The position numbers and the translations under genes were made by a program. This document shows positions 23,201 through 61,101 of a stretch of DNA of 64,000 nucleotides, in pieces (the stretch's first letter is position 1; every line of letters begins with the position of its first letter). This DNA is from Tubiluchus corallicola (Eukaryota; Priapulida; Priapulimorpha; Priapulimorphida; Tubiluchidae), in NCBI GenBank assembly GCA_030141605.1, contig JAQGDQ010000411.1, positions 1 to 64,000 on the forward strand. The letters run 5' to 3'. The notes under the pieces were generated by a model, which ran no database searches, was not told where the DNA came from, and saw only the letters and a program-made list of their open reading frames with translations.

Positions 23201-26200
23201 AAGACTTAGTGAGAATCATTTTGTTTCTCCTGCTTTTGTTTTTAAAACAAGGATAAATTTGGAAGAAGCAGAGATGATACCGTCTCCAGGCTTAGCTGCT
23301 ACACACTTATAGGTGTAATAGTTAAGATTTATAAAGATTTCTGTGGTTGTCAGACCTGTCCTAAGAATGTTACACTTGTAATGTCCTACTGTGGCTGTCA
23401 CACCTGTCCTAAGAATGTTACACTTGTAATGTCCTACTGTGGTTGTCACACCTGTCCTAAGAATGTTATACTTGTAATGTCCTACTGAGGTTGTCACACC
23501 TGTCCTAAGAATGTTGCACTTGTAATGTCCTACTGTGGTTGTCACACCTGTCCTAAGAATGTTACACTTGTAATATCCTACTGTGGTTGTCAGACCTGTC
23601 CTAAGAATGTTACACTTGTAATGTCCTACTGTTGTTGTCACACTTGTCCTAAGAATGTTATACTTGTAATGTCCTACTGTGGTTGTCACACCTGTCCTAA
23701 GAATGTTACACTTGTAATGTCCTACTGTGGCTGTCACACCTGTCCTAAGAATGTTACACTTGTAATGTCCTACTGTGGCTGTCACACCTGTCCTAAGAAT
23801 GTTACACTTGTAATGTCCTACTGTGGCTGTCACACCTGTCCTAAGAATGTTACACTTGTAATGTCCTACTGTGGCTGTCACACCTGTCCTAAGAATGTTA
23901 CACTTGTAATGTCCTACTGAGGTTGTCACACCTGTCCTAAGAATGTTACACCTGTAATGTCCTACTGTGGTTGTCACACCTGTCCTAAGAATGTTACACT
24001 TGTAATGTCCTACTGAGGTTGTCACACCTGTCCTAAGAATGTTACACTTGTAATGTCCTACTGTTGTTGTCACACTTGTCCTAAGAATGTTATACTTGTA
24101 ATGTCCTACTGTTGTTGTCACACCTGTCCTAAGAATGCTATACCTGTAATCTAATCTAATATTACCTGCTGCAACATGTAGAGTAATTATGGTCATTTTG
24201 AGCTTTTCAAGTAATGTACCACGTAGAAAATTGTCTTGGTAAAGCATAAGCATATTTCATGTAACTTTACAGAGACCATTTTAACAACGATTACGATGAA
24301 TAGACGCGTTTGCTTTAATAGTCTTTACAATTACTATAGAAGATAGTTGTAGAATATGGCTGCTGCTTTTTTGTACAATAGGAAATTATTTACGTGAGTA
24401 AAACGTTTGATTTTATCTAATTTAGTTAACAATGAGTTTGGGTGTTTGAAAAATAAACAAGTAGATTTACCTTCTTTTGTAAGTTAAATAAAAGTTGACA
24501 ACAGATGTGAAGATGATCCTAGCTCAGTGATTTGCCTCAATCTAGACACACCTGACCGAGTCTGCCATACTTGGTGCTCGTCTAAAGGGATCATTCATGT
24601 ACTGCTGTTTCAGTAAGCCAATTTTTGTCTGTGTTTTAGAGAGAATGAAGCCCTGTGGAATGAAGTGGCTGTCCTGCGGCAGAAACATGCCAAGCAGCAG
24701 CAAGTTGTGAATAAAGTACGTTTACTTTTAGTACTTTTTTGTACGTTTAAATTGGGAGAGTGAATAGGTGAGTGGTCACGGTGTGTGCTTGGTTGTAATT
24801 ATTAGGCAGCGCCAAACTAGTTAACATATGATTGGACTGATGAGCGACCTTCAGAAGTCACTGCTGTTTGGCTTCATTTGCCAAGATGTCCTCAACGGTT
24901 TAGCTTCACGAATGACGTGTCCATACGTTCACAGTTATTATCTCCTTTAAAATGAATCTGATTCATAAATAGCTGTGTCCTGGTCCTGCCACAACTGACT
25001 AAACCTGTCGTGATTGTGGCATAACAGCTTGGTAAATGTAAAAGAACAAAATTTCGAACAAGTTTATGTAGCGCTGATTTGCTTTTTATCGTGGTCGAAG
25101 ATTTCTGTTTTAAAAAGTTTCATCTGTAAATGTGATTTGTTTTCAGCTCGTACAGTTTCTAGTCAGTCTAGTACAGAGCGGTGGTAGAAGCGTGTCTATG
25201 AAACGTAAGACGCCACTTGCTATCAAAGGAAGACAGAGAAAGTATGCAAAGACGGAGAGAAAATTGTTATCGGTAAGTTGACTGATCTCTTAGACAGCTT
25301 ATAGTTGTAATGTAGTAACTGATGTTTATGTAAGCATTAGTTCATGTTAGTTCTTCATACCTTACACAATTTCATAAATGTGTGCTTGCATAGCAAAATC
25401 GTCCATAAGTTGGCAATTAAGCTTTTCTAGTTATTCACATATCCTGAATCTCCATTTCATGAGGATCATTTCGATACCAAGTTCATCGCTCTACGTCACT
25501 TCTAAGCTGAGATAATCCATGTTGAAGTTGAGGTGCAGGCTGCGCACTGAAAAACATAATCTTGAGAAAATTATTGTTAAAGTCAGCCATTGTTTTTTAT
25601 CACATTTCTGCAAAACACTTAGCAACCGCACAAACGTTGGTTGCTACGGACTTTGCAAGAACACATTGAAGTTATGTTTAAATCCAGCAGATGGCTCTTC
25701 CAGATGAAGATCTGGGTTTAGCAACAGAAAAAACAAAAGCAAACTGACAGCTTCTACGAGCTACAATCAGAATTTGAAAATAAAAGTTTTTTTTATAGTT
25801 GCAGTACTAGTTTACTAGACAGAAAAGTGGCTGCAGGATTATAAAATTAGATTTTTAGTATTTTTGAACATTTTCTTGATAATTTGATGCTAGAACATAA
25901 GAGTCAATATATTTAGTATTTGTTTTTATGAAAAATTGACATTTGACCAAATTTTTTTGTCGTTCTGTTTTGAAACATCATAACGTAGTTTTAACTATAG
26001 ACAGTTTTTTTGGCAAGCACACATATTACAATGCTGACTTTAAATTTATGTGAGATTTATTTTGGTGAAAAGTTACGTAGATATGTTAGCTTGAAAACAA
26101 GTTAACAAATAGATATAGTGTAAATTTTCCTGAAAATTACAGCATCAAATGAAAATGTTATTGCAAATGTTTTTGGAAGCACTATGGCAGAAGGTTTGTG

Positions 26201-29200
26201 TATTCTTACAAGGAAAACATGCAGGCAAAATGTCCTAAAATGAGTGAATGAAGGCAGTTTAATTAACATAAATATTCCAACTTGTTGCTTTTGTTAAAGT
26301 AGCCACAATAAGCCTTTTCTCAGTTTCAGCAATAGATGATGATCGTGAAAACGTCAAAGGTTAAGTGTACCAGACAGCGCATTCGTGTACACTTGACAAC
26401 GCCTCACAGCCCAAGCTGTTGTAATAGCAACAGTTTTCACAGCTACCTAGAACCTTACCTAGTTCATTTTTTCTTGTTCTCAAGCAAGATCCTGCCAATA
26501 ACTCACTCTATGCACAGATTAATGCATAATTAATTAAAGTCCATATAAAAGAACAGAAATCACTGAACTGATGTGGCAGATTAGTTTGCTTAACCCACAT
26601 TTCACGTGACGGTTGTGGTTAAGATGCGCTGTCATTTTACACCTAACCTTTGACCTACAGCAACTGCGCGTGCACACAATGAAACTTTGAACAGGCTTAT
26701 GAAATGTAATTTGTTCCTTTTCCAAAATGGAAAACCAGAAAACTACATTCTGTTCGATGCCACATGCAGCATTTGCAAGATTTTATTTTCACTTGCAGTT
26801 AGCAGTAAATCGGTCCTCAACGCAGAGCTGTAGACTGCACTGTTTAGCATAGGTGAAGCCTCATTCTTGTAGGTCAATGGCTTCATAAACTATAATTTTG
26901 TTATTTTGTCTTGTAACTTCTGTGTCATTTTATGCAAACAGCATTTCTGTTTTTTTCTCCTAATAGGAAAAATATTCAGCAGTTTTGAACACGTAATCTC
27001 AAAGCGTTTTTGCTGGGAATTTTCCTGAATTTCTGTTCATTTACAGGACAGCAAGGAGCCGTCGTCAGAAGGGGTGATAATTTCGGATGTTTTGCAAGAC
27101 TCTGACAGTGACAATTTAGAAACGGTTACAGGCCAGGCTGGTATGTATTCCACTCACCGCAGCTATATTAGTGACAGAGCATTTTATTGATGCCAGTAGA
27201 GGCAGGATTGCATTGCGTTACACTGTGATATTTTTTTCTTAAAAGCTAGTTCTGTTTGATTTTAATCATTTGCTATTTATCGTAATTGAGATGGAGAAAT
27301 TCAGCTGTTTGTATTGGGAACTGGAATCGGTATTCAGGTATAAAAACACCTTGAGAAGTTTTTCTGGTTTTGATGTTTTATCTAGAATATGCAACAGGTA
27401 TGCACTACAGGGTGTCATTTAATGTTACTACAGAGGGCGCCGCTTAATAGACTCACTTTGGGATGGAAGTGCGTTGACTCATCTAACCGACAAATGTAGT
27501 ATCGTAGTGTAGAAGTATGAATCATCAGCTTAGTATTCACGGCAAAGGCTATCAATGAAATTTAGATATGAAAAAATGCAGTTTCTCAAAAATATTAATT
27601 TATAAAGTGATTTAATAAAAAATAAAATAAAAAATAACCTGTCTAAATCACCCAAGTCTATTTAAAAATTACAAACATTTGTTCAAGGTCGTCTGCTTCA
27701 TTTTTCACAAAGAAGTTGGCTCACAAAGTTCAAGGTCGTCTGCTTCATTTTTCACAAACAAGTTGGGTCACAAAGTTCAAGGTCATAAAAACATTGAAAA
27801 TCTGTTGTTGTATGATGCACAAATTCTTGTAAAATACTTAGTGTATGGCGTGTTTGAACCGTATTTTAATGGTCTACCGGTAAAATAATATTATGCTTTA
27901 AGCTCACATTGTATTTCACTAGCTATTCATTATGTACATAATGTAAAAATTTATTTAATATTTTTGTGCTTATGTGCCCTGCACACAGAGGGCTTATTGA
28001 ATCCATTTTCAAAAAAGATTTTTAATAATAATAAATTCATTCATTAAACGATGCAGCTGTCATCCAAGCTTTCGAGTTTCCATGGTAATCTACATCAACT
28101 TTGTACTTGTATTAAACGTTCTATGAAAGGCTGTAAGAGTAGCAAAAGCAAACCGTTAGGCTAGTGATTCAATGTGCAGAAATTACTGGGTAATGAGGTT
28201 ATATGCAGTGGATGGGCAAGTCACAGCAAAACCGCTCTAGGTTAGCATATTAGCGTATGATATACATTCCTGCTTACAAACAAAAAGGTACTTAACATGA
28301 TTGTTTTTAAGTATATTATAGAACAAAAGTGAACTAAGATGATATCAAAGTCATGAAAATTGAATGACTCAATGCCGGTGCTGCTTAATGATGCCGGTGC
28401 TGCTTAATGAGTTAGGTGTTGATTAACGACACCAGTGCTGCTTAATGATGCCGGTGCTGCTTAATGACACAGTGCTGCTTATTGATGCAGATGCTGCTTA
28501 ATGAGTTAGGTGTTGATTAACGACACCAGTGCTGCTTAATGATGCCGGTGCTGCTTAACAACACCAGTGCTGTTTAATGATGCTGGTGCTGCTTAATGAG
28601 TTAGGTGTTGATTAACGACACCAGTGCTGCTTAATGATGCCGGTGCTGCTTAACAACACCAGTGCTGTTTAATGATGCTGGTGCTGCTTAATGAGTTAGG
28701 TGTTGATTAACGACACCAGTGCTGCTTAATGATGCCGGTGCTGCTTAACAACACCAGTGCTGCTTATTGATGCAGATGCTGCTTAATGAGTTAGGTGTTG
28801 ATTAACGACACCAGTGCTGCTTAATGATGCCGGTGCTGCTTAACAACATCAGTGCTGTTTAATGATGCAGGTGCTGCTTAATGAGTTAGGTGTTGATTAA
28901 CGACACCAGTGCTGCTTAATGATGCCGGTGCTGCTTAACAACACCAGTGCTGTTTAATGATGCAGGTGCTGCTTAATGAGTTAGGTGTTGATTAACGACA
29001 CCAGTGCTGCTTAATGATGCCGGTGCTGCTTAACAACACCAGTGCTGTTTAATGATGCTGGTGCTGCTTAATGAGTTAGGTGTTGATTAACGACACCAGT
29101 GCTGCTTAATGATGCCGGTGCTGCTTAACAACACCAGTGCTGTTTAATGATGCTGGTGCTGCTTAATGAGTTAGGTGTTGATTAACGACACCAGTGCTGC

Positions 29201-32200
29201 TTAATGATGCCGGTGCTGCTTAACAACACCAGTGCTGCTTATTGATGCAGGTGCTGCTTAATGAGTTAGGTGTTGATTAACGACACCAGTGCTGCTTAAT
29301 GATGCCGGTGCTGCTTAACAACACCAGTGCTGTTTAATGATGCTGGTGCTGCTTAATGAGTTAGGTGTTGATTAACGACACCAGTGCTGCTTAATGATGC
29401 CGGTGCTGCTTAACAACACCAGTGCTGTTTAATGATGCTGGTGCTGCTTAATGAGTTAGGTGTTGATTAACGACACCAGTGCTGCTTAATGATGCCGGTG
29501 CTGCTTAACAACACCAGTGCTGCTTAATGATGCTGGTGCTGCTTAATGAGTTAGGTGTTGATTAATGACACCAGTGCTGCTTAATGATGCCGGTGCTGCT
29601 TAACAACACCAGTGCGGCTTAATGAGTTTGGTGCTGCTTAATGACACCATTGCTGCATAATGATGCTGGTGCTGCTTAATGACACCAGTGCTGCTTATTG
29701 ATGCAGGTGTTGCTTAATGACACCAGTGCTGCTTAATGACACCAGTGCTGCTTAACGACACCAGTGCTGCTTAATAAGTTTGGTGCTGCTTAATGACACC
29801 AGTGCTGCTTAACAACACCAGTGCTGCTTAATGAGTTTGGTGCTGCTTAACGATGCCAGTGCTGCTTAATGAGTTTGGTGCTGTTTAACGATAGCAGTGT
29901 TGCTTAATGAGTTTGGTGCTGCTTAACAACACTAGTGCTGCTTAACGAGTTTGGTGCTGTTTAACGATACCAGTGCTGCTTAATGAGTTTGGTGCTGCTT
30001 AACGACACCAGTGCTGCTTAATGGTGCTGGCGCTGCTTAATGACACCAGTGCTGCTTAATGACACCAGCGCTGCTTAATGACACCAGCGCTGCTTAATGA
30101 CACCAGTGCTGCTTAATGACACCAGTGCTGCTTAACAACACTAGTGCTGCTTAATGAGTTTGGTGCTGTTTAACGATACCAGTGCTACTTAATGGTGCTG
30201 GCGCTGCTTAATGACACCAGTGCTGCTTAATGGTGCTGGCACTGCTTAATAACACCAGTACTGCTTAATGACACCAGTACTGCTTAATGACACCAGTGCT
30301 GCTTAATGGTGCTGGCACTGCTTAACAACACCAGTGCTGCTTAACAACACCAGTGCTGCTTAATGACACCAGTGCTGCTTGATGACACCGGCGCTGCTTA
30401 ATGACACCAGTGCTGCTTAATGGTGCTGGCGCTGCTTAATGACACCAGTACTGCTTAATGACACCAGCGCTGCTTAACAACACCAGTGCTGCTTAATGAC
30501 ACCAGTGCTGCTTAACAACACCAGTGCTGTTTAATGACGCCAGTGCTGCTTAACAACACCAGTGCTGTTTAATGACACCAGTGCTGCTTAACAACACCAG
30601 TGCTGCTTAATGACACCAGTGCTGCTTAACAACACCAGGGCTGCTTAATGATGCCGGTGTTGCTTAAGGACACTGGTACTGCCAACGCTGCCGGTGCTGC
30701 TTAACAACACCAGTGCTGCTTAATGATGCCGGTGCTGCTTAACAACACCAGTGCTGCTTAACAACACCAGTGCTGCTTAATGATGCCGGTGCTGCTTAAC
30801 AACACCAGTGCTGCTTAACAACACCAGTGCTGCTTAACAACACCAGTGCTGCTTAACAACACCAGTGTGCTTAATGATGCCAGTATTGCTTAACGACTCT
30901 GGTACTGCCAACGCTGCTGGTGCTGTTCTTTCTATTATACTGCTTGTGTTGACTTTGTTCGTTTTTCAGGAATGTCTCCGGAAATGTTAGAAGAGCTTTC
31001 ACACGAACCCCTCGATCTGGAGGAACTTCTTCACGAAATGCCGTTGAAACCCGTAGAAAGTGAGAACAACGAACCGGCAAACACCGGCAAAACGGATACA
31101 GCAACGTCACCCATTGTTACTTCTCCGTTGAGTGACCTGGGACAACAGGGGGTAGAACCCGGAATCATCCAGGGAGAAGACGTTCCTATATATCCAGTTT
31201 TGCTACCCACGACTACAACTATTGCTGTTCCTGTTGATAATTTTGCGAAGTATGTTAGCTGAGATAATTACCATATACTTAAAATTATAGCGTGGGAGAG
31301 AATGAATTCAGTGTAATTAATTTTGGTGGCTTTTATATAAGTTTCGACGAACTTTAATGACGTACCATTTTCAGTGATCTATGTATCAAACCACCTATGG
31401 GTTTGTCATTTGTCATGTTTTTTCAAATCAGGGCCACCGGAAGGAACTCCAAAATGGCCCTTTTTTACCTGTTTCTTGCAAAACTTACACCTCGTATTTC
31501 TAGAGACGGGGAGCAGGCCAGGGGTGGTGCTGGTAATGGTTGGATAGCTCGTTCGTGATGGGTGTAGTAGGCATATTTAGAATTTGCAGGAGAGCTACAG
31601 ATTCCCGTAACACGCGTTTTCCCGGACCCAACTCCCGATTATTTGGAAATTTTGTCGGACATCGTATAGAAAAAACATTCTAGTGGCACCTGGTGGGGCT
31701 CTTGGAAAGAGATATACAGCTTTATAGAAAGAGGAGGAACAGGGCTATACAATGACGTAGGCCACATTTCAGGTTGCCTCCACCAAGAGGAGATGTGACG
31801 AGTTGATTGGGGCTTCCATTTTGGGCCTCACTTAGAAAATTGTTGACGCCTTGCATTGTCTTGACACCATTCTATTTTATTCTGCCTATAACTTTACTTC
31901 AGTAAAAGCTGCTGCTCTCTTTGCATTTGGTAAATGAATGAACACTGTGTAGGATGTTTACGCATTACTGATTTTAGGTGCATTTATGCGCAAAAATTTT
32001 TGCAGGGCCTTTGCTAGTGTATGAAGTAAATTATGACGTGATCATCCCTTGCTCAAGGTTAAATTACGATTAAATTACGGTTATAACGCTCTGTCATAAA
32101 CTAATTAGTTAAGTAAATAGAATCAATAAAACATCTACAGTAAGTCCTCGCTTAACGATGCTAATGCGTTCTATTATCTGTGCAAAAGCTTCGTTAAACG

Positions 32201-35200
32201 AAACCAAGACTTCCATTACAAGTAATGTAAAAAACTAAAATACATTCCCGGGTGATACATAGATGCGCCTAAATCATCTAAATCAGGAGTGTGCAAATTA
32301 TCCGACTAGCCGGGCCACATTAAACTTTCCCGCAATTCCTTCGGGCCACAGGCAGTTTGATCAAGGAGCCAAGTACAGAAAGGCCTGCTAACGATTTTTT
32401 TGCATCCGACCTGCATACATCATTACTACTACACTCAAGAAACTATTTTAGAAGTTATTAAAATTTATATTACAAACCATATATTTCTACTTTCAGGACA
32501 GATAGTGGTAATTTCATTACAATGCATGATAGTAATGTGTATCAGTCTGTGTAGTACAGTGACATTAAGCTACAACAGTCTTGTAAGGGTTAATGGCATC
32601 CGATCTAGTAGAAAAAACTACCTGCACTATCTTTGGGATCGTGGCACGGACTTCAGCTGGATACACTCCATTAATCGCCCGGGCCGCACTTTCATTAGGT
32701 TGACAAATCTGTTCGCGGGCTGCACAAATTCTCTCGGCGGCACGGAAGTTGCCCGCGGGCCGCAGTTTGCACACCCCTGATCTAAGTGAAACATTTTATG
32801 AGTTTCATTCATGTTTCTGCTGATTGATTTCTTTCTGTTTTTACTCTTGTATTGTTTGCATTGTAAGCCAGCAGAAATGCAAAACATTCAATGGTTTTGA
32901 ATATATATATATTATGTTCATATTCATCATTGTTGCATTAATGTTTTGTTTTGTTAACAGGTCGGAATTACAAGAGAAGGTGGAGGCAACGTCAAATGAC
33001 TTGGATTCTCTAAAACGTCTCCTGTCCAACGGATCGTATAATTTTGATGCCTCTGAGTTTCTTGGGGTGAGTTCAAAAAATACCGAGGCTTGAATTTAAA
33101 TTTTGAATCCGGATTATTTTTGTTGAAGTTTCGTTCGCAGTAAAATTTGGTTCGTAAATAATAAGTGTTTCAGATTTCATTGATTATACATATTCACTGT
33201 GATAAATTTACAGTGAAAGTGGTTTTGTAATGTTTTCATCAACTCTGGAATGTGTCTCTGTATTGTTGTCGGTTGTTCATCATACTCAGACGGTAATTAC
33301 TGTAACGAGCCTTTACACAAAGTCTTCGCGTCATTTTGCTCAGGTTGGCGTTGCTTCTGAATTGGAAGATATCAATGGGGGGGGGGATTCCCTACGTGAT
33401 TCGCTGCACGATCGCTTGCAGTTGGCAACCTTGTCTCTAATCAAAACAACACAAGGCCGCATACCTTGTCCAAAGTGCACACCTTGTCCACACTGCACAC
33501 CTTGTCAACACCGCACACCTTGTCAACACCGCATACCTTGTTAACACCACACACCTTGTCCACACTGCACACCTTGTCAACACCGCACACCTTGTCAACA
33601 CCGCACACCTTGTTAACACCTCACACCTTTTCAACTCTTCACATTTTGTCAACAGCTCACACCTTGTTAACACCACACACCTTGTCAACGCTGCACACCT
33701 TGTTAACACCACACACCTTGTCAACACACACCTTGTCAATGCCTCACACCTAACACCTTGCATGTTGTCAACACCTCACACCTTTTCAACACTTCACACC
33801 TTTTCAACACTTTACATTTTGTTAACACTGCACACCTTGTCAACACCGCACACCTTGTCAACACCTTACACATTGTCAACACCTCACACCTTGTCAACAC
33901 CGCACACGTTGTCAACACCTTACACATTGTCAACACCTCACACCTTGTCAACACTACACACGTTGTCAACACCTTACACATTGTCAACACCTCACACCTT
34001 GTCAACACCGCACACCTTGTCAACACCTTACACATTGGCAACACCTCACACCTTTTCAACACCGCACACCTTGTCAGCACCTTACACATTGTCAACACCT
34101 CACACCTTTTCAACACTTCACATTTTGTTAACAGCTCATGCCTTGTCAACACTGCACACCTTGTCAACACCACACACCTTGTCAACACCGCATACGTTGT
34201 CAGCACCGCACACCTTGTTAACACCTTACACCTTGTTAACACCTTACACCTTGTCCATTCCACACAACTTTTCTACACCACACCTGACTTGAGTTACACC
34301 TGAACCACTTTTCCGCAATGCTCAAACTCGGCGAGACGCTGCTAGATGTTTTTGCTTGTCATGTGCGCTAATAAAACAGCCAAAATTATTTATCAGTGGC
34401 GCACTCTGCAGAGCATTGGGTGAAACGACATGTTAGCCTTGTGCATTCCTTCTGTGACCCTTGAACTAATTTTAGTTAAGTTAGCTTAAACTGCTAAGTT
34501 AGGTCCGTGATAAAACATTGAAAATGTTTGTGAAATTGTGAAGTAAGTGTTACGTTTCGTGTACATAAATTACACTAAAGTACAAAAGTAAAGTAACTAA
34601 ACAAAAACTACAGTAAAGAGTTAGCTAAAGTTTTTATCAGCTCCTAGTAGCAGAGTGTCGGTCGGCTTTGTTTGATAGTGAATTTTTAGTTCATAAGCTA
34701 AAAAATGTTGGATAAAAGTAACAATTAACTGTTATGGCAGTACAGTGCATTACTGATCGGGTAACCCGGCGCAAAATTTTGTCGCTTATTAACAGGGCTA
34801 TGGAGTCGGAGTCGACAGTAAACTTATTTGCTAAAGGAGTCAGATTCGGAGTTGTTAAAATTAGGGTGTTGGAGTTGGAGTCGGGACTCGGGAGTACACT
34901 TATTGTTAGAGGAGTCGGTGCTGAAGCTGCTAAAAATAGACAAGCTCCAACTCCAGTTATTTTTAAAGCAGTTATATATAATACTTAATGTATATTAGTT
35001 CACATAAGTAAATTATATCAGCAAAGGTAAACTTTTGATTGTTAAGGCTTAGGTGAGACGCTTCTTACTCTGGGCAGTTACAACATGTTATTAGATACCT
35101 GTTTTTCTTATAAATATTTACATGATGTTTTTGTTTGTGCAAATGTCTTTCAGGGAAACTTGAGTATAAGAAGTAACCCGATGATTCGACTTGGTAGTGA

Positions 35201-38200
35201 TAAAATGCCACTGTAACTAAGCTGCTAAAATTATATTGAGAGTTGTACAAAGTATTATCTAAAGGCAGGAGTCGGAGTCAGAGTTGAACTTGGAGCTTCT
35301 AAAATTTTAAGAGTCAGAGTTGGAGTTAGAGTTGGATGTTCTAAAATTTTAAAAGTCAGAGTTGGAGTTGGAGTTGGATCTTTTAAAATTTTAAGAGTCA
35401 GAGTTGGAGTTGGAGTTGGATCTTTTAAAATTTTAAGAGTCAGAGTTGGAGTTGGATCTTTTAAAATTTTAAGAGTCACAGTTGGAGTTGGATCTTCTAA
35501 AATTTTAAGAGTCAGAGTTGGAGTTGTAGTTGTATCTTTTAAAATTTTAAGAGTCAGAGTTGGATCTTCTAAAATTTTAAGAGTCAGAGTTGGATCTTCT
35601 AAAATTTTAAGAGTCACAGTTGGAGTTAGAGTCGGATCTTTTAAAATTTTAAGAGTCACAGTTGGAGTTGGATCTTCTAAAATTTTAGGAGTTGGAGTTG
35701 GATCTTCTAAAATTCTAGGGGTTGGAATTGGATCTTCTAAAATTCTAGGAGTTGGAGTTGGAGTTGGATCTTCTAAAGTTTTATTAGTAAGAGTTGGAGT
35801 TGGATCTTGTAAAATTCTAGGAGTTGGAGTTGGGAGTTTAATGTACAGACTTCACAGCCCTGCTTAGTTACAAATCAGCAAGTTCTCTTTTCACTGAACA
35901 GTGGTTTTGGTTTAGCAAGTAAACATCAAAGTCAGTAGTTCTAAATGTAAAAGCTGAAAGTAAACTGTCATTATTCAGTCTGGTGACAATGTTGCTTTGA
36001 TTCTCAATGTTTACAGGTGCATAATTTAGTAGCAGGATCGCCAAAAGAAATGTTGGGCTCCATAACTTATACAAGGGCATGAAGACTATAATATACAAAA
36101 TTTATGTTCAGTAATATTCCTTTCTTAATATCTGAAATATGTCCCAGTTTGTTTTCTGATAAACAAAGGCCCATTTTTGGCTTTTTTTCTTGCATAACAA
36201 CGAATAACTTCATCAAAATTGATGTTCCTTGCAAGTTCGGTTTCATTGATCAATCTTGCCAGGTCTACCAGCCATCCCCGTGTGTCATTGTGGATCTAAG
36301 GAAGTTTTTCATCTGTTTTAGTTTGTTGACTGAGCGCTCTGCACAGGCAAGAATAGAAGATATTGTGAGAATATGTACCTGATTCGGATCAGTTCAAATA
36401 CTGATCATGCCAATGTACAAGATTTAATGTTTATGGGCCCCAGAACAATGTACCGGCTGCACTCACTTTCTGAAGCGTGCTCGGAAGCCCTGCAATCAGT
36501 TGTGTTAGACGAACAACTTTACAGCTTGCGTGATGTCATACATTTCTGTTGCTTCTTCAACCTGAATAATTCACTTGAAACGGAGTGACAGAGCGAACTT
36601 TCTTTGACGCAAAAATACTAATTTGGAAACAATTTGGAAACCTCAATTTGCAAAGATTAACTTCGCAAATCATTCTGGTCTATGCTAACTTTACTGTACA
36701 CAGCGCTGTTGCCACGTGGCTAGAGCTGTTTCACCACATTATTGCTACATTATTTGGCATTACTGTTGCATTATTTATTTTCATTGCGTTTTCCTTACAG
36801 TAATTCGGATGAGGATGTTGTGTGTCGTATGAAATGTTTGTTGCTTTTTCAACATCATGCTCATTGCATCTATCTGTACTACACGTTTGCATAGAAAAGG
36901 TGTTTAGGAATTTAGTTTTCTCTGGAAAAACATGATCACGTCGTCTGCATTGGATTGTGCATTACTTAAACTATTATGCTATTTTGTCAGATGAGCCTAC
37001 TAATACAACCTGTCAATGTTTCGCGGAGTTGAAGTGGAGTTAATACTAGGAGTAGGTAATTATATTACCACTGATTTCAAAATCCTGATTCGCTGACTTT
37101 TAACGTTAAATTTACACCGTATTTTATTTATCGTAATGTTTCTGTGCAATTACGAACTTTGTAGCCGTCGTGAATTTCATACACACCTGCTGATTGCTTC
37201 ATTTGATTACAGGTAAGCAACCCCCTGACTGATTACGGTGCGTTTCCTTCTACGTCAAGCGATGATGCCAGCATCCTAGAAAGCATCTTATCTTATTTGC
37301 AGGTAATGCTACCAGCATCCTAGAAAATATCTTATCTTATTTGCAGGTAATGTTACCAGCATCCTAGAAAGTATCTTATCTTATTTGCAGGTAATGTTAG
37401 CGTCACTTGCGGCCCATAGTTAACATTAGTGGGGGTGCTGCTTCAGAAGAAAATTTAGCCATTGTTTTAGTAATGTGTAAAATAAAACAAACTTGTAATT
37501 TCAATGTTGTAATTTGTAATTGTAATTTTAAGCAAGCAAACATACAAAAATTTATGCATAAACTTGATAAAATTCTAAATTGTCGCAGTTCAAGAATTTG
37601 TCGGTACACGGGTTTTTAAACGCGTGACAACTGACAACAAACTGTGTGAGCGACAGCTCTTTCTCTACCTAGCAGCATATGCTAGCAGTGCAGCGTACAA
37701 CGTGTTATCTGAGACATAAGCGCATGCCAAACATTTAGCAAGCACTACACTCACGTACTCTGGTTTCGTAAAAGTATAAAGAAAGAATTAAAGAAAAAAG
37801 ATTCATTATATTGAATATTATCAATAATATTGAGTAAAAATAGGGGGCACCACTAGTTAGCCTTTCGACTAAATAAAGAATTGTTCTTGGAGATGATATA
37901 CATTCACACATGTGTCAAAATAGAAATGTTAGAAATTTCGAAAATTTTAATATTTTTAAAGAGTGTCACATTCTGTTCATATGTGACAGTAGTCATGTTC
38001 CTGGTTCAGTTATCTTTTATAACACCATGCATTAACTGCCTTTACTATCAATGTCAAAAGTAATATTTTTATTTTATAATAATATGTAAACGCAAAAGCA
38101 AGTGTATTCTCATAAACTGTACCTAATAGCGCTGATAACAGACAAAGATGAACCATGGGTTGTTCAGAGATGCACTTATGAAATTTTCATCGTAGGTTTT

Positions 38201-49383: not shown

Positions 49384-52300
49384 ATGTCGTTTGCGTTTAT
49401 GCCTCGGAAGGTAAAATTGTTTGTTGCTGTGAAACATATTGTAAAATATAAGATTTGTGATGTCGTATTGTCACCGTGAATTGTATATATGGGTTTAGTG
49501 GGTGTAATACTGCTTACAATATAATTTTCCATATATCTGCTGGCGCGTAGGTCTTAATAAGTATAAAATGTTTTGAAAAGAATTCACCCAACCTATTTGA
49601 TTAAACTTGTTTGTTTTTACTAATCATTCTGACCAATGATCATTATCATTACTGTAATCATCGTCATTGTTACCATAAACGTTGATTTTATGTCGCAGTC
49701 TGTGTCTTACATCTACGAGTGATTTAATGGTACTATCCTTGCATTCTTGTTGTTTCCCTAGGTTGCCAGCCAGGTGGCAGCACAAAAGAGTGACGCAGAG
49801 AAAGCTGCAGAAATCAAGCGACAAGAACGAATGAAAAAACTGCGGGAGTTGCACCTACGAAGAGTAAGTACCGTGTGTAGTTATATAAGAGTTTAACAAG
49901 AAATAATGCCTAATTTAATGTTTGTGCTTTTTATAATATGAATCATTAAGAACGAACTAAGTTCTCACCTTTCCACAACAATTTCCACGCAGAGAGGCCG
50001 AAAATAAATAAAACCATTGAACTTAATAAATATTTTGCTTGATATTTTGAAGATGTAACTTATCACAATCATTGTGTTTATTATTCTGTTTGCTTTGTTT
50101 ACTTGTTTTTTGCTTGTTTGTAAACATGTTACTCGTGTTTAAAGCCATTGTGTGAAGTAGATCACTCTCACTATACCGAAATAATTGGAGTAAAATTTGT
50201 GGAATTCATTTTTGAGATGCGTAGTTAAATTATTAAGACATTTGCCGATCTTTGTTCCAGAATGAAGCGAGAAAACTTAATCACCAGGAAGTGGTCGAGG
50301 AAGATCGCAAAAGTAAACTTCCCGCAAATTACGAAACAAAGCGCAAATGGGCCGAATGGAAAATAAGCGAAATTGAAAAGAAACAGGTTTACTCGGCTTT
50401 GTGCTAGTTAAAAACCATTTTGCCTCAATACGAGTGCGTAATTTTACATACATGGTCAAACTTCATCATACTGCCTAACTCATTTACCACCTGCAAAATG
50501 GCCAGGAACAATACAGCTATATTCAACTGTATGTAACAATAACCCATTACTGTCATCTACCAGGTAAATTAATATATGTGTTCAATGGGTAAATACCGAC
50601 AGTAGTCTCAAGTCTCTCAACTAAGGCCAGCAGCTTCTTGATATAATGCCCGCTGTACGAGACTTCTACATGTCCGACGGAGTTGTAGACACTGGCTAGA
50701 CATCAGCAGCTTGTTATAATGTCCACCGGATGAGCCTGCAACATGTCCGGCTGACACTGGCTAGACATCAGCGGCTTTTTCATATAAACCACTCCCCCCC
50801 CCCACCCCCGTACCGTATAAGACTTCTACATATCCAGCTGAGTCCTGGACACTGGGTTAAAGATTGCATAAAAGTATGCACGTCATCATCTTTTGATTGC
50901 TTGCAAGCTGTACACTACAATGTGTAATCACAACGAATGCACCACCTAGTGGCATGTGGTCACAACGGAAACCGACAAGAAAACACGTGGCTTTTTTCCA
51001 CCAACAAAATATTTGCTTTTTTATTAGAAGCACTCATTTGGGTGAAGGGTTACAAAGCTAGGCTCCTCCTTCTCCCCACAAAGATCTAATCTCTAATCTA
51101 AAATCCCGGCAAGACTTTCGTAGTTATGACTTCACCTTTCTTTACATTCACACATGTTTAATGGAGTAGTTGGCCTACAGTCTTTTATATTGATAATTAT
51201 GTATTTGAGTACAGAACATGTTTGTTTTGTAAACAGAAAGTTGTTGATAAAGTTGACTGATTTTGAGTTAGTCATTAATTCACAAATAATTAATTTAATT
51301 ATATTTTTAATTCATTAACCTTCAGATTAAAATTTGAGAACTCTTAACCTGTGTAAACTTGTCTGACTGTTGTGACTTGTCTATGACAAAATTGAACTCA
51401 TTCAGTTATGACACCAAACTTGTTGCCATTTGAACTTTTTTCCGGTGCAAAATTAGACCGTATAAAGAGATTCAACTGTATTCACAATGTTATAGATGTG
51501 TGATCTGTAAATTCGCTAGTATTATTAGTATGCTAACATGCCCTAACTGTTGGTTATGCAAAAACTGATAACTCGTCAATCTTGATTGCATATCTATAGA
51601 TGTTTGTCATTTTTGCAGGAATACGCTGCAAAAGGAGAAGACTACGAACGTGCGCGGCTCCTCGATGTCCAAGCCAGCGAAGCCGAGAAATGGGAACGAC
51701 AAAAGAAGAAGAAGAAAAACCCTGATCAAGGTGAGAATTAAAATCAGCTATAATGAACTTGATCAAGGCAGCAATTAAAATCAGCCATAATGAACTTGAT
51801 CAAGGCGAGAATTAAAATCAGCTATAATGAACTTGATCAAGGCGAGAATTAAAATCAGCTATAATGAACTTGATCAAGGCGAGAATTAAAATCAGCTATA
51901 ATGAACTTGATCAAGGCAGGAATTAAAATCAGCTATAATGAACTTGATCAAGGCAGGAATTAAAATCAGCTATAATGAACTTGATCAAGGCGAGAATTAA
52001 AATCAGCTATAATGAACTTGATCAAGGTGAGAATTAAAATCAGCTATAATGAACTTGATCAAGGCAGGAATTAAAATCAGCTATAATGAACTTGATCAAG
52101 GCAGGAATTAAAATCAGCTATAATGAACTTGATCAAGGCGAGAATTAAAATCAGCTATAATGAACTTGATCAAGGCGAGAATTAAAATCAGCTATAATGA
52201 ACTTGATCAAGGCAGGAATTAATGTCAGCTATAATGAACTTGATCAAGGCGGGAATTATAATCAGCTATAATGAACTTGATCAAGGCGAGAATTTAAATC

Positions 52301-55300
52301 AGCTATAATGAACTTGATCAAGGCGAGAATTAAAATCAGCTATAATGAACTTGATCAAGGCAGGAATTAGTGTCAGCTATAATGAACTTGATCAAGGCGA
52401 GAATTATAATCAGCTATAATGAACTTGATCAAGGGGAGAATTAAAATCAGCTATAATGAACTTGATCAAGGCGGGAATTAAAATCAGCTATAATGAACTT
52501 GATCAAGGCAGGAATTAATGTCAGCTATAATGAACTTGATCAAGGCGGGAATTATAATCAGCTATAATGAACTTGATCAAGGCGAGAATTAAAATCAGCT
52601 ATAATGAACTTGATCAAGGCGAGAATTAAAATCAGCTATAATGAACTTGATCAAGGCAGGAATTAATGTCAGCTATAATGAACTTGATCAAGGCGGGAAT
52701 TATAATCAGCTATAATGAACTTGATCAAGGCGAGAATTAAGATCAGCTATAATGAACTTGATCAAGGGGAGAATTAAAATCAGCTATAATGAACTTGATC
52801 AAGGTAGGAATTAAAGTCAGCTATAATGAACCTGATCAAGGCAGGATTTAATGTCAGCTATAAACAACTTGATCAAGGCGCAAATTAAAATCAGTTATAA
52901 TGAACTTGATCAAGGCGGGAATTAAAATCAGCTATAAACAACTTGATCAAGGTGAGAATTAAAATCAGCTATAATGAACTTGATCAAGGCGGGAATTAAA
53001 ATCAGCTATAATGAACTTGATCAAGGCGGGAATTAAAATCAGCTATAATGAACTTGATCAAGGCGGGAATTAAAATCAGCTATAATGAACTTGATCAAGG
53101 TGAGAATTAAAATCAGCTATAATGAACTTGATCAAGGCGGGAATTAAAATCAGCTATAATGAACTTGATCAAGGCGGGAATTAAAATCAGCTATAATGAA
53201 CTTGATCAAGGCGGGAATTAAAATCAGCCATAATGAACTTGATCAAGGCGGGAATTAAAATCAGCCATAATGAACTTGATCAAGGCAGGACATTTGCATT
53301 CATGCAATTTTTTTACATATTGGTTAAAAAGACACCAATGGCATCTTATACATCAACCTGCTATCTGTTTATTTGCAGGTTTCTCTGATTATGAAGCTGC
53401 GACAAAGAGGCAGTACGATCGCTTGATTAAGAACATGAAAGTTGACATGGATAGTTATCAGAATCAGAAAGAAAAGTTGTAAGTAAACATTCTTTATTAC
53501 ATCTCTGTAGAGCTTAAAAGAAACAAAACGTTTTTCCCGTAACAAATTATTTACTGGTTTACAGTGAGTCCTCGCTTAACGACTCCCAGTTTAGCGACGT
53601 TTCATTTTAACAACAATTTTTTTTACTTTGCTCAGAAATTTTTTTTTAATTTATCAACGACTTTTTTACCTAATTTGGTGCATTAAAACAGTACATGTTG
53701 CATTATTCTGTTCTAAAAACACACTAGTAATGTAAACGTACAGTTATTATACATGTTTTTGCTTCCCTACTGACTAACTGACTGACTCTTGTCCATTTGT
53801 ATGAAGCCTGAGAGAAAATTGTGAAGGAATGCTCCCTGCAACCTGTTCCCGTAACAACCCGACTAAGTGCCCAGGTAAAATTCGCGAGATTGCCCCTTGT
53901 CTTGGCTTTGACTCTGCAGTGTTTATTGTTTAAAGGCAGCCTAGGTTTAAATATCAGCGAAAGAAAAACCACTAGCTAGGTATTGATAAGAAAGACATAT
54001 ACGTGGTTCATACACTCAGAAAGAAATTAGTTACCGTATATACTCGCATATAAGCCTACATCGCATATAAGCCGACCCCCTAAAACTGCTTTAAAATGGC
54101 CAGTTTTTGCAAAAACCCGTATATAAGCCGACCATCAACTTGTCTAATTTTACTCCATACCCAATCAACAAAATTCATCCCTTTTTGTCACATTTTGTTA
54201 ATTGGGTATTTTTGGTTCATAGAAATTTTTTACTATAAAGATGTAAAATGCTTACTTTTATGTTACATACTAGAAGAAATTGCTTGTTTCTTCAGCGGCC
54301 TTTATCACTTTTAGCTTGAAGACAGCAGTATAGGACATACGTTTTCATTTTTCTCCAGGCATGGTGTATTGCACAAATAATTTTACAACTAAAATTATCA
54401 AAATTCAGCACACTTTTAAATTCTGTTACCGAAAAAGCATGAAAAATAACCAAAACTGAAGACAACGAAACTTACATCCTGCAGAGGCAGCCATGATTTC
54501 ACGCGTGGCGCTATCTAGCGAGAATGGTCAAAATCTTTCATCCGCCGATTGAACTACCGTATATACTCGCATATAAGCCTACATCGCATATAAGCCGACC
54601 CCCTGATTTCAGTATTGTATTTTATAGTTCTAAATTCGGCTTATATGCGAGCATATACGGTAGTAGAAAAATAAATAAAACCCGTAAATGTTTAACTCGC
54701 ATGAATTAAGCAGCATTGATTTTTGCATCTCAAATTATTTATATTACTGTCTATAGAAGTCTTGGCTTCGTTTAACGACGTTTCGCTTAGCGTCGCATTT
54801 TGCTTGAACGCAGTTGTTAGGGTCGTTAAGCGAGGACTTACTATATACGCGAATTTTTTGCTAGTTTCTATCATAATTTTATTGTATAGTCAGTGTTTTT
54901 TTAATTTTCGATACAGTGCTATGTACTTTTAAATACATGAAATAATTTTAAAATAATAAAAAACTAAAAATAAAACATGACCACAAAAGATGCCTGCTAT
55001 TAGATTGCACATTTCTGAATGTAAAGAATGCTGCTGAGAATTTGGCAGCATCTTGGGAAACAGCCAGACAGTCACGGTGTGTGGTGAGTTATAAAGTTAA
55101 GGTGTGCCAAGCTTGGTTACTAAGCAAATGGGTGACCACAAGAGCACCCGCTCGTGAGTGCATCTGAATGCAGCTGACACTTGACAAATGACTAAGCTGT
55201 TCAGTCATTTTTTTACATGATTATCCTCGATAGTAAGCTAGATACTCGTCCTGCCACAATTATCTACTTTGATCGAGTCGTGGCGCTAGACTGGATCCCT

Positions 55301-57321
55301 GCTTGACGAGTTGTATAAAGTAGCAAAGTTGCCGTAACTACAGAAATGCATCTTACGGCATCTCTCGTCAAAATAACTTCTTGCATCTTCCTTTATGATA
55401 GCATCTCATTTTATTGTAAAACAGGAATGATAACGAAGCGTCAGGCTCCTCTGTGATACCCGGAACTCATAAACCAACCGAAGAGGCTGTCGAAAAGTTG
55501 GCGGATACCGTAGAAAAACTGTATGTACTGATTTTCTAAAATTCCGAGTACGAAAGATGACACTTACGTTCTAGATAAAACGTATTTGTGAAATATGTTT
55601 AATGTACAGAAAGACTTGTTTATTGTATTTTGAGCTAAAACTTTTAATTTACAAAGTTGAAAAGTATGTCAAACATTTCGACAGAGTTACTGCTGCCATC
55701 TTCAGTGATAAATTCTTAAAAACATACAAATAGTTTATATAGGCAGAGACTACAGTATGGAACATTATATGCACTAATTATGTATTTTTCAGAAGGCAAA
55801 TAGGTAACGGATTATGCAGACCAGTAGAAAAGAAATTGATACAGTAAACTGTGCACTAATTATGAATTTAACAGAAGCCAAATAGGTAATAGATAAGCAG
55901 ACCAGTAGAAAAGAAATTGATACAGTAAATTATGCACTAATTATGTATTTTTCAGAAGCCAAATAGATAACGGGTTATGCACACCAGTAGAAAAGAAATT
56001 GATACAGTATATTGTGCACTAATTATGAATTTAACAGAAGCCAAATAGGTAATGATTAAGCAGACCAGTAGAAAAGAAATTGATACAGTAAATTATGCAC
56101 TAATTATGTATTTTTCAGAAGGCAAATAGGTAACAGATTATGCAGACCAGTAGAAAAGAAATTGATACAGTAAACTGTGCATTAATTATGTATTTACAAA
56201 AAGTCAAATAAGCAATAGATAAGCAGACCAGTAGAAAAGGCTCCGACTCCAAAGCCCTAAGTTTTAACAACTCCGACTCCTTCAGGAGTAAATTTACTGC
56301 CGGCTCCGACTCCACAGCCCTGAGTATTAACAATTCCGACTCCTTCAGGAGTAAATTTACTGCCGGCTCCGACTCCACAGCCCTAAGTTTTAACAACTCC
56401 GACTCCTTCAGAAGTAAATTTACCGCCGACTCCACAGCCCTGAGTTTTAACAATGCCGACTCCTTCAGGAGTAAATTTACTGCCGGCTCCGACTCCACAG
56501 CCCCGTTGGAATGGCTGTTATAGGTTCAAATTCGACACACACAAGCTTTTTTAATTAAAATTTTGATTTGAACCTAAAATTACGGATTCAAATGATTCAA
56601 TTACATTTGTTCGTTCATCATTGAACCATTTCAGATGTCAAACTGATATAAAGTTCAGTTATAAACAAAATTATAGACTCGGTTTTGTAAAACCTTCATT
56701 TATTTCGTATTTTTTCTGAACGTTGGTATAAGGATTTTAACGAAAACTTTTTAATACCGAATTCGATTTGTTGAAATCTGATTTGTTTGAAATTTGAAAG
56801 CCAAGAAATAGATTTCATTCGATTTCTGGAGCATGTATACGTTTGTATTTATCATCATCATCATCATCATCATACGCCCGTCACGTCTATTGTAGACATT
56901 GGGCGGGCAGAATTCTAAAATAAAAGAAATCTGCCTTCAGACAGGTAAACGCAGCAGTAATCCAGCAAAAAACTAGACACTGCTATGCCAGTGGCTTGTC
57001 AGCACCACTTCCGTGAAAATACTGTTGTGTCTGTTTACTTCTGTTAGAATGGTTGAGGCAATGGCAGAAACCTATTGCCCGAGATCTCCTTGTGAAGAAA
57101 AACTACAGAAACTGTCTTGATTATTTCTTACATGCTTCTTATTAACTTTTTTCAGGATTGAAAAACGTGCAAAGTACAGCCGCCGAAGAGCTTACGACGA
57201 CGATGCGGACATTGATTACATTAACGAGAGGAATGCCAAGTTTAACAAGAAACTCGAGCGTTTCTACGGCGAATATACGGCAGAGATAAAACAGAATTTA
57301 GAAAGAGGAACTGCAGTGTAG
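49384..57321 (+). CDS. SYF2: Pre-mRNA splicing factor SYF2, complete, 7 exons
   Basis: Component of the Prp19-associated (NTC-related) spliceosome complex, nuclear. Exons: 49384-49410, 49762-49863, 50261-50386, 51619-51730, 53379-53478, 55425-55520, 57156-57321; joined 729 nt, 242 residues, against 243 in human. The family signatures are in order: [22 protein letters not shown], split by an intron after [37 protein letters not shown]; and the invariant C-terminal [19 protein letters not shown], then [19 protein letters not shown]. The protein is highly charged and mostly helical. The start MSFAFMPRK is an own 27-nt first coding exon whose ATG follows a possible acceptor (TATTTTCAG, AG at 49341-49342), so a 5'UTR intron is possible. 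The donor of exon 4 (51731) is the first unit of a 1.5-kb minisatellite. Identity is near certain. Confidence 0.97.
50600..50790. repeat. About 80-bp imperfect tandem repeat
   Basis: CACTGGCTAGACATCAGC recurs with GACTTCTACATGTCC and GGCTGACACTGG variants; in SYF2 intron 3. Confidence 0.6.
51723..53287 (+). repeat. 37-bp minisatellite seeded on the SYF2 exon 4 splice donor, about 42 copies
   Basis: Unit TGATCAAGGCGAGAATTAAA then ATCAGCTATAATGAACT. The first unit is the real exon 4 end (GATCAAG at 51,724-51,730) and its donor GTGAGA. In most later units the donor GT has become GC; GTGAG survives near 52,027, 52,952 and 53,100, and GTAGG near 52,804. The array ends 90 bases before exon 5. Confidence 0.97.
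53562..54843. mobile_element. Family T MITE, full length, hosting another MITE
   Basis: Ends CAGTGAGTCCTCGCTTAACG and inverted TAGTAAGTCCTCGCTTAACG; TA flanks. In SYF2 intron 5. Confidence 0.88.
54034..54660. mobile_element. CCGTATATACTCGCATATAA-ended MITE nested in the family T MITE
   Basis: Ends CCGTATATACTCGCATATAA and inverted CCGTATATGCTCGCATATAA, TA flanks. A second 5' end at 54,557 also pairs with the right end, giving a complete 104-bp copy (54,557-54,660) inside or beside a longer one. Confidence 0.8.
55771..56215. repeat. 82-bp minisatellite with alternating subtypes
   Basis: GCACTAATTATG unit starts at 55,771, 55,853, 55,934, 56,016, 56,097 and 56,179. Two subtypes (TATTTTTCAGAAG and AATTTAACAGAAG) alternate, a dimeric unit of about 163 bp. 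Confidence 0.88.
56225..56510. repeat. 63-bp minisatellite made of hAT ends, about 4.5 copies
   Basis: Unit CTCCGACTCCACAGCCCTGA then GTTTTAACAACTCCGACTCC. CCGACTCCACAGCCCTG is the reverse complement of the CAGGGCTGTGGAGTCGG hAT end seen at 34,793. Confidence 0.9.
56850..57060 (-). mobile_element. (ATG)n-tailed retroposon end, copy 2
   Basis: (CAT)n at 56,851-56,873 followed by the reverse complement of the 48,056-48,110 sequence; extends further than copy 1. Confidence 0.6.
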
Positions 57322-60392: not shown

Positions 60393-60879
60393 TCACACGT
60401 AATCGCGACCACGAATTCGCCGTGCCAAACTGATGTCTTTTGGCATAATGGTGACCCGTTTTGCATGAATGGCACAAAGATTTGAAGATTCAAACAGATT
60501 GACGAGATACATCTCCGCAGCTTCCTGCAACGCTCGAATGGCAAGTTCCTGCCATCTCAGAGGGGCACGCGTCACACAGTTTTGAGCAATCTCTTTAACG
60601 ACTCTTGCAAACGGCAGTTTTCTAAGCAACAAGTCGGTCGATTTTTGGTACTTGCGTATTTCCATTAGGGCTCGGGTACCAGGTCTGTATCGTCTATGAG
60701 GCGGAGCGGCTTCGCGTCTGCTAGTGGAGGCACGTTGTTGATTTGAAGTGGAGGGATGTGGATTGGACGGTTCATCCGACGACTCGGAAGAATCGGAGAA
60801 TCGTGGAGCAGGTTCTCGTCTACTAGTGGAGGCACGTTGACGGGGTGATTCATCCGATGATTCGGAAAATCGACGATGT
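60393..60879 (-). CDS. CENPA: CENP-A-like centromeric histone H3 variant, last coding exon (5' exon not found)
   Basis: Centromere-specific H3 that marks the site of kinetochore assembly. The exon encodes 161 residues ending RIRGRDYV. About 90 residues form a histone fold ([20 protein letters not shown], then [32 protein letters not shown]). CENP-A hallmarks: loop 1 NCVTRAP is two residues longer than canonical H3, and Trp replaces Phe in LRWQ. The 71-residue visible tail is unlike H3, Ser/Arg-rich, and holds two copies of a module ([11 protein letters not shown] and [11 protein letters not shown]) plus two SSDE-type acidic serine motifs. The exon opens with an acceptor (ATTATAG on the minus strand) and a split codon, so a start exon lies at higher coordinates; I found no convincing candidate. 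Replication-coupled H3 genes are intronless with a conserved tail, so this is not one of them. Confidence 0.88.
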
Positions 60880-61101
60880 CTATAATGATATCACATACGT
60901 AAATGATAGTTATTAGTTTTTAACAAAAAAAATCCAAATAGGAAACAAAAATTCATTCTACGGCTGCAAAAAGTGACGAAATTTGTTGAATGATATTTAG
61001 TAATTGTATCAATTATTTAACCTGACAGATGATGTCCATTATCTAGTCAATCTAAATATTAGATTTCTTTTCCTAAACATAATTTCAGGGACTTAGTGAC
61101 T

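Follow-up and report, generated by a model that had tools for sequence, protein, structure and literature searches.

We analyzed a window of 64,000 nucleotides, namely positions 1 to 64,000 of contig JAQGDQ010000411.1 of the priapulid Tubiluchus corallicola (assembly GCA_030141605.1), in which the SYF2 gene carries a 37-bp minisatellite that starts inside exon 4, includes the presumed working splice donor of that exon, and extends through most of intron 4 (Table 1). Joining the exons gave one open frame that runs to ...NLERGTAV, and the joined protein matched the Pfam SYF2 family with an E value of 4.2e-51 (the query had one extra and one different residue relative to the exact join). The SYF2 chain of PDB entry 5mqf, which we take to be the human protein, matched at 2.1e-37, with NPDLGFSDY across the exon 4–5 junction, and a second PDB SYF2 chain (8ro0) has NPDQGF at the same junction. 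Since NPD[QL]GF is common to the PDB SYF2 chains, an old protein, rather than the repeat, determines where exon 4 ends, and the codons of the exon predate the array. These matches support the assignment of the gene to SYF2 in the preliminary description of this DNA; the exon number 4 holds given one 5' exon further upstream, which our numbering assumes. A Pfam model search of the genome (343.5 Mb) found no second SYF2 locus, and a search of the genome for COX1 gave no match.

Table 1. The SYF2 gene and its intron 4 array in the window. TRF, Tandem Repeats Finder; a slash marks an exon–intron boundary.
Feature	Position	Strand	Basis
SYF2 exon 2	49762-49863	+	acceptor ccctag, donor AGA/GTAAGT; joined open frame
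SYF2 exon 3	50261-50386	+	joined frame; PDB SYF2 alignment
SYF2 exon 4, end ...NPDQ/G, phase 1	51619-51730	+	Pfam SYF2; PDB alignment through junction
37-bp minisatellite, 42 units and a partial 43rd; 8 bp of unit 1 exonic	51723-53290	+	TRF; unit table
Presumed working donor of exon 4, GTGAGA, in copy 1	51731-51736	+	frame continuity with exon 5; U1 duplex -9.6 kcal/mol
SYF2 intron 4, 1648 nt	51731-53378	+	array makes up 95% of the intron
Copy 9, identical to copy 1 (37/37), GTGAGA	52019-52055	+	unit table
Copy 30, GTAGGA	52796-52832	+	unit table
Copy 34, identical to copy 1, GTGAGA	52944-52980	+	unit table
Copy 38, identical to copy 1, GTGAGA	53092-53128	+	unit table
SYF2 exon 5 (GFSDYEAAT...)	53379-53478	+	acceptor ctgtttatttgcag; Pfam/PDB
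SYF2 exon 6 (NDNEASG...)	55425-55520	+	phase-compatible open exon
SYF2 exon 7, last, through ...NLERGTAV and stop	57156-57321	+	PF08231, E 1.3e-21; frame

TRF described the array with a period of 37, 42.4 copies, 93% matches, and 0% indels. The sequence TGATCAAGG recurred at 43 starts with an exact spacing of 37 bp, corresponding to 42 full units and a partial 43rd (14–15 bp) that matches up to GCAGGA. Such a run of 43 ungapped starts indicates that the array is not a chance pattern, and the 42-copy array first described on the exon 4 donor was confirmed. Exon 4 ends in TGATCAAG, the eight bases that open unit 1, and the next six bases of the unit are the presumed working donor GTGAGA; the unit had been given as 37 bp with the exon end and the donor, which was correct except that it holds eight exon bases and not seven. 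Only unit 1 overlaps the exon.

The 42 units fall into 17 distinct sequences with a mean pairwise identity of 93%. Three distant units (copies 9, 34, and 38) are the same as copy 1 at all 37 bases, and a single base, T to C at +2, separates copy 1 from the most frequent unit (9 of 42). The mean mismatch between units was lowest at lag 4 (1.58, against 2.51, 2.88, 2.69, and 2.54 at lags 1, 2, 3, and 5, respectively), suggesting that the array grew partly by blocks of four units. Fourteen of the 37 columns vary, with +2, +3, and +4 being the most variable, and the eight exon-derived columns and +1 are invariant over the 42 units. At 41 of the 42 later starts, the unit joint forms a 10-bp perfect palindrome, CTTGATCAAG, which contains the 8-bp exon-derived block. 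A genome search with the exon end and array start, which skips very common words, gave 20 matches, all in the SYF2 locus, and a dispersed repeat family was rejected on this ground as the origin of the unit. Intron birth by AGGT duplication was also rejected, since the exon 5 acceptor TTTGCAG/GTTTC is no copy of the unit. Intron 6 of the gene has a separate array at 55768-56239, whose 82-bp unit contains TTTTTCAG AAGGCAAATAG GTAACG, where a GT resembling a donor lies 11 bases from an AG resembling an acceptor.

The splice signals are present in all copies of the intron 4 array, and few are intact: AAG/G was kept at 43 of 43 starts, while the following dinucleotide was GT at 5, GC at 36, and GG at 2. 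The donor hexamers were GCGAGA (12), GCGGGA (12), GCAGGA (10), GTGAGA (4; copies 1, 9, 34, and 38), GGGAGA (2), and GTAGGA, GCAGCA, and GCGCAA (1 each). The rarity of GT in the later copies had been noted before and was confirmed, as the 42 later starts include three GTGAGA and one GTAGGA, the rest being GC or GG. The three exact GT copies lie at least 296 bp downstream of copy 1. If copies 34 and 38 represent one block pair, the five GT copies derive from at most four lineages (1, 9, 30, and 34/38).

Our analysis revealed that minisatellites over splice donors recur in unrelated genes of this genome. Over the whole genome, three AGGTRAGT motifs at gaps of 14–44 bp gave 2077 matches (899 + 1178), against 258 (138 + 120) for the reversed pattern, and the GC version of the triple gave 93 against 57 for its control; these matches overlap, so that long arrays and repeated families contribute a large share, and arrays are fewer than matches. 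Single AGGTRAGT motifs were 1.46 times as frequent as the control (30067 vs 20540). We examined 21 loci with GT arrays (10 of 13, and 11 of 17 further ones, among the matches listed, with six of a dispersed 26-bp family left out). At five of the 21, a database-recognized exon stops at the donor of the first unit (HSP60, Smoothened, SLC35F, intersectin PH, and an EGF domain), and at four (C5, C34, C660, and C423) an open frame without a hit above the cut-off runs to the donor. The other 12 showed no exon of this kind; among them are simple repeats, repeats that resemble mobile elements, and, at L015, a frame of 73 aa with no hit. A PDB search found no match for the 31-aa exon of C5, and only four engineered or tandem-repeat chains, with E values of 0.06 and above, for the frame of C660. 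The GC arrays numbered 14 on 13 loci (of 19 among the matches listed); one, in a GMC oxidoreductase gene, is exon-anchored, and another was not judgeable because its upstream sequence is N. The donor motif lies in the first array unit in all six database-supported cases (35 loci were read at the first unit). The Pfam scan of frames covered 24 of the 35 loci, L037 among them; it did not extend to L006, L009, L010, L014, L021, L023-L025, L027, L028, L035, or the + strand array of L034, and at L036 the frame scanned was not the longest.

The exons that carry these arrays matched PDB chains at 2.9e-21 (HSP60) and 2.3e-30 (Smoothened) and a Pfam family at 7.2e-25 (SLC35F); the E values were 8.2e-8 and 1.9e-5 for intersectin PH and 5.9e-16 for GMC oxidoreductase. 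The next exon was found beyond the array in HSP60 (DGKKLHDELEVIEGMKF) and in GMC oxidoreductase (WPRGRVLGGSSAIN), indicating that both arrays are intronic. Downstream of the intersectin array we saw a likely next exon, NWVKKLTVATQHYQATEKRK, which we take to be intersectin-like. For Smoothened, SLC35F, and the EGF gene, none was found, and no further search was made there. The units of these arrays are unrelated to the SYF2 unit, and up to about 40 exonic bases lie inside the unit in the EGF, intersectin, and Smoothened arrays. Unit length is a multiple of three in only one of the seven database-supported arrays, SYF2 included (Smoothened, 42), which gives no hint of selection on the frame. A dispersed 26-bp tandem family of the type GTGAGTCAGTGRTGCACACTGGGAAG, with a donor-like AAG/GTGAGT, was also observed (L004, L011, C100, C567, C707, C874, C916, and C921); no exon was found at the array start in the two loci of this family that were looked at.

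Judged from their motifs, several genes contain arrays whose donor motifs are intact and lie next to a presumed working donor. GT was found in 12 of 13 copies in HSP60, 4 of 5 in Smoothened, 10 of 10 in the fetched part of SLC35F, 8 of 9 in intersectin, 7 of 8 in the EGF array, 48 of 48 in C5, 5 of 5 in C34, 9 of 9 in C660, and 5 of 5 in C423, as well as 9 of 12 in C2074, where the open frame matched nothing in the databases. The counts disregard isolated matches that lie hundreds of bases off the array (one each for Smoothened and C5, and one for C1788 in the GMC counts below), and several arrays were covered only in part. These arrays were found by patterns that demand GT (C2074 by GT-then-GC), so their GT retention is partly built in and gives no estimate of how rare GT loss is.

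The GMC oxidoreductase gene was found twice, on C33 (L038) and C1788 (L039), each time with a 32-bp boundary-spanning array; the long blast matches between the two have 95.2% and 91.5% identity, and they are alleles or paralogs. Of the 48 (C33) and 52 (C1788) matched copies, 34 and 40 have GC, and 9 and 6 have GT. The presumed working donor at the exon end, placed by exon continuity, is GC in both, suggesting that a GC majority is not always donor-killing. The strict pattern AAGGTRAGA followed twice by AAGGCRRGA had four matches genome-wide, three in the SYF2 array and one on C2074. The order GT-then-GC-GC showed no clear genome-wide excess over GC-GC-then-GT (1197 vs 1144), with AGGT/AGGC simple repeats dominating the matches listed.

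We conclude, with a probability of about 0.85, that the SYF2 array is a boundary-spanning minisatellite, or “mirage”, which grew over the exon 4 donor, and in which copy 1 would serve as the donor and the later copies would be intronic passengers. This reading is favored because the exon end, the donor, and the array share one register without indels over 42 units. Slippage or unequal exchange would have duplicated 8 exon and 29 intron bases over the donor, and the copies would have spread down the intron by block duplication, including the four-unit blocks suggested by the lag-4 signal. Intron 4, which by its coordinates would measure about 131 nt with one unit only, may in this way have grown to its present length. 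Splicing would use copy 1, which lies nearest the exon and is among the few strong donors, and the other copies are most likely inert. The GC majority may go back to few independent changes: block duplication may have carried along a few early substitutions at +2 to +4, or a GC that a second seed repeat already had, while selection for splicing would hold GT at copy 1 only. The birth of the array on a functional donor, as proposed in the preliminary description, agrees with this: the presumed working donor belongs to the array and is its most likely starting point, and other exon ends of this genome show a like anatomy. Two observations do not fit well. The invariance of the eight exon-derived columns (post hoc hypergeometric 0.013) is unexplained by pure drift, and SYF2 is an outlier against most other arrays examined by its GC majority and low GT share.

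A wider account would join SYF2 and GMC oxidoreductase. Minisatellites would be born on donors repeatedly, and homogenization would push GC into +2; it would have taken over the strong GMC donor (CAG/GCAAGT) and produced a GC-AG intron, whereas at the weaker SYF2 donor (AAG/GTGAGA) selection would stop GC at copy 1. We offer this account tentatively and consider it rather unlikely.

Selection against GT in the copies themselves is possible. In its full form, extra donors would yield SYF2 mRNA with an in-frame TAA, selection would have purged GT, and homogenization, as suggested at the outset, would have spread the T-to-C change everywhere except copy 1. The absence of GT from 38 of the 42 later starts and the outlying position of SYF2 among the exon-anchored GT arrays examined are consistent with this, and the single T-to-C step that separates the copy 1 unit from the commonest unit agrees with the spread of such a change. 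However, the three exact GT copies persist, the other exon-anchored arrays keep GT (although they were found by GT-demanding patterns), and the GT-then-GC order is without clear excess. The same distribution could arise in few events, through a founder effect with block duplication or through mutation of the CpG in GCGRGA. We regard purging selection as improbable.

The use of the copies as alternative donors, whether GC-AG or GT, would make the array a poison switch or decoy that regulates the SYF2 dose through a premature TAA. With the U1 sequence that we assumed for the pairing, the duplex energy was -9.6 kcal/mol for copy 1, with which the three other GTGAGA copies pair alike, and -9.2 kcal/mol for GTAGGA. 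In contrast, the GC copies reached only -3.0 to -5.2 kcal/mol, while the GC donor of the GMC type, CAGGCAAGTAC, reached -8.8 kcal/mol; GCAAGT, the strong-consensus form for GC-AG alternative donor arrays, occurs in 0 of the 36 GC copies. Because the GC copies pair weakly with U1, GC-AG splicing from them, which the preliminary description had thought conceivable, is unlikely. The description had also placed a TAA in the exon frame of every unit, which is incorrect because 37 is not a multiple of three (37 mod 3 = 1). The first in-frame stop is the TAA at 51739-51741 in unit 1, and it alone would truncate any product of a later copy; truncation by a misused copy would thus be expected, but not through one TAA per unit. 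A decoy function tied to SYF2 being itself a splicing factor was rejected: that proposal rested only on the identity of the gene, and HSP60, Smoothened, and SLC35F have the same kind of array. A human minisatellite, that of IFI6, is described as providing multiple donors, and would be a precedent for alternative-donor use. On the other hand, the amphioxus “mirages” are reported without splicing interference (PMC3087553, PMC3902484), and the unit lengths, as noted above, give no hint of frame selection. We consider regulation by the copies very improbable.

Least probable of all, and hardly credible, is that the exon end shares 8 bp by chance with a minisatellite or mobile piece in the intron that has no relation to it. 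In favor of this are the abundance of minisatellites in the window, where TRF gave 45 rows (some of them overlapping) in 64 kb, and the small exonic part of 8 bp. Against it, the presumed working donor lies in copy 1, three later units repeat copy 1 exactly, the genome matches are confined to the SYF2 locus, and the exon ends elsewhere with up to about 40 exonic bases in the unit point to direct descent there.

Other features of the window were also observed. The very high density of minisatellites is illustrated by the arrays at 2235-2620, 23341-24150, 28378-30897, and 33457-34255. At 37268-37399, a 44-bp unit repeated three times contains TTATTTGCAG followed by GTAATG, in which a GT resembling a donor directly follows an acceptor, an arrangement known from recursive splice sites; near this repeat, at about 37205-37217, lies GATTACAG followed by GTAAGC. 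On the minus strand, 60393-60890 is an uninterrupted histone-fold open reading frame (Pfam Histone, 1.1e-38) with a long N-terminal tail, which looks to us like centromeric H3 (CENP-A).

As a boundary-spanning minisatellite, the SYF2 array is a real, long array of a known kind. We saw no report of it in the literature searched, in which the gene name was not used as a query, and this is no proof that it is unpublished. Our study provides a clear and long example and reveals that such arrays recur at conserved genes within one genome; intron growth, tolerance of decoy donors, and the change of donors from GT to GC become testable by RNA-seq from one species.

Among human genes, the 31-bp variable number of tandem repeats of CBS, c.1444_1467+7(16_21), has by its notation a unit of 24 exon and 7 intron bases repeated 16–21 times (PMC2630376), and the title of a work cited there refers to an association with CBS activity. 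Its unit spans the donor as in SYF2; however, as described it is mostly exonic and polymorphic in people. The minisatellite of IFI6 (6-16) likewise lies over a donor but differs from SYF2 in that its copies are said to act as donors. Internal tandem repeats or minisatellites at exon–intron boundaries are also summarized for human duplicated genes, with 27 intron modifications (PMC2812944); unlike SYF2, these concern recent paralogs, many with alternative transcripts.

The closest likeness is to the amphioxus mirages of Adh3, the globins BflGb6 and BflGb9, PGBD5, and troponin C, which the accounts cited here present as minisatellite-like repeats across exon–intron boundaries, with splice signals, length variation, homogenization, and regular splicing reported as intact (PMC3087553, PMC3902484). 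In both systems, tandem units span the exon–intron boundary of a real gene. Many, though not all, mirage copies are said to keep AG/GT, whereas GT is lost from most of the 42 copies in SYF2. Mirages are described as homogenized inside the cluster with the boundary units excluded; in contrast to BflGb6, copy 1 of SYF2 has not diverged from the inner units. Concerted evolution is indicated in the SYF2 array by the lag-4 blocks and the identical distant units. As to length, the array of the same kind in the GMC oxidoreductase gene has 48 matched copies on C33 and 52 of them on C1788, two loci that may be either alleles or paralogs; for SYF2, one locus was found.

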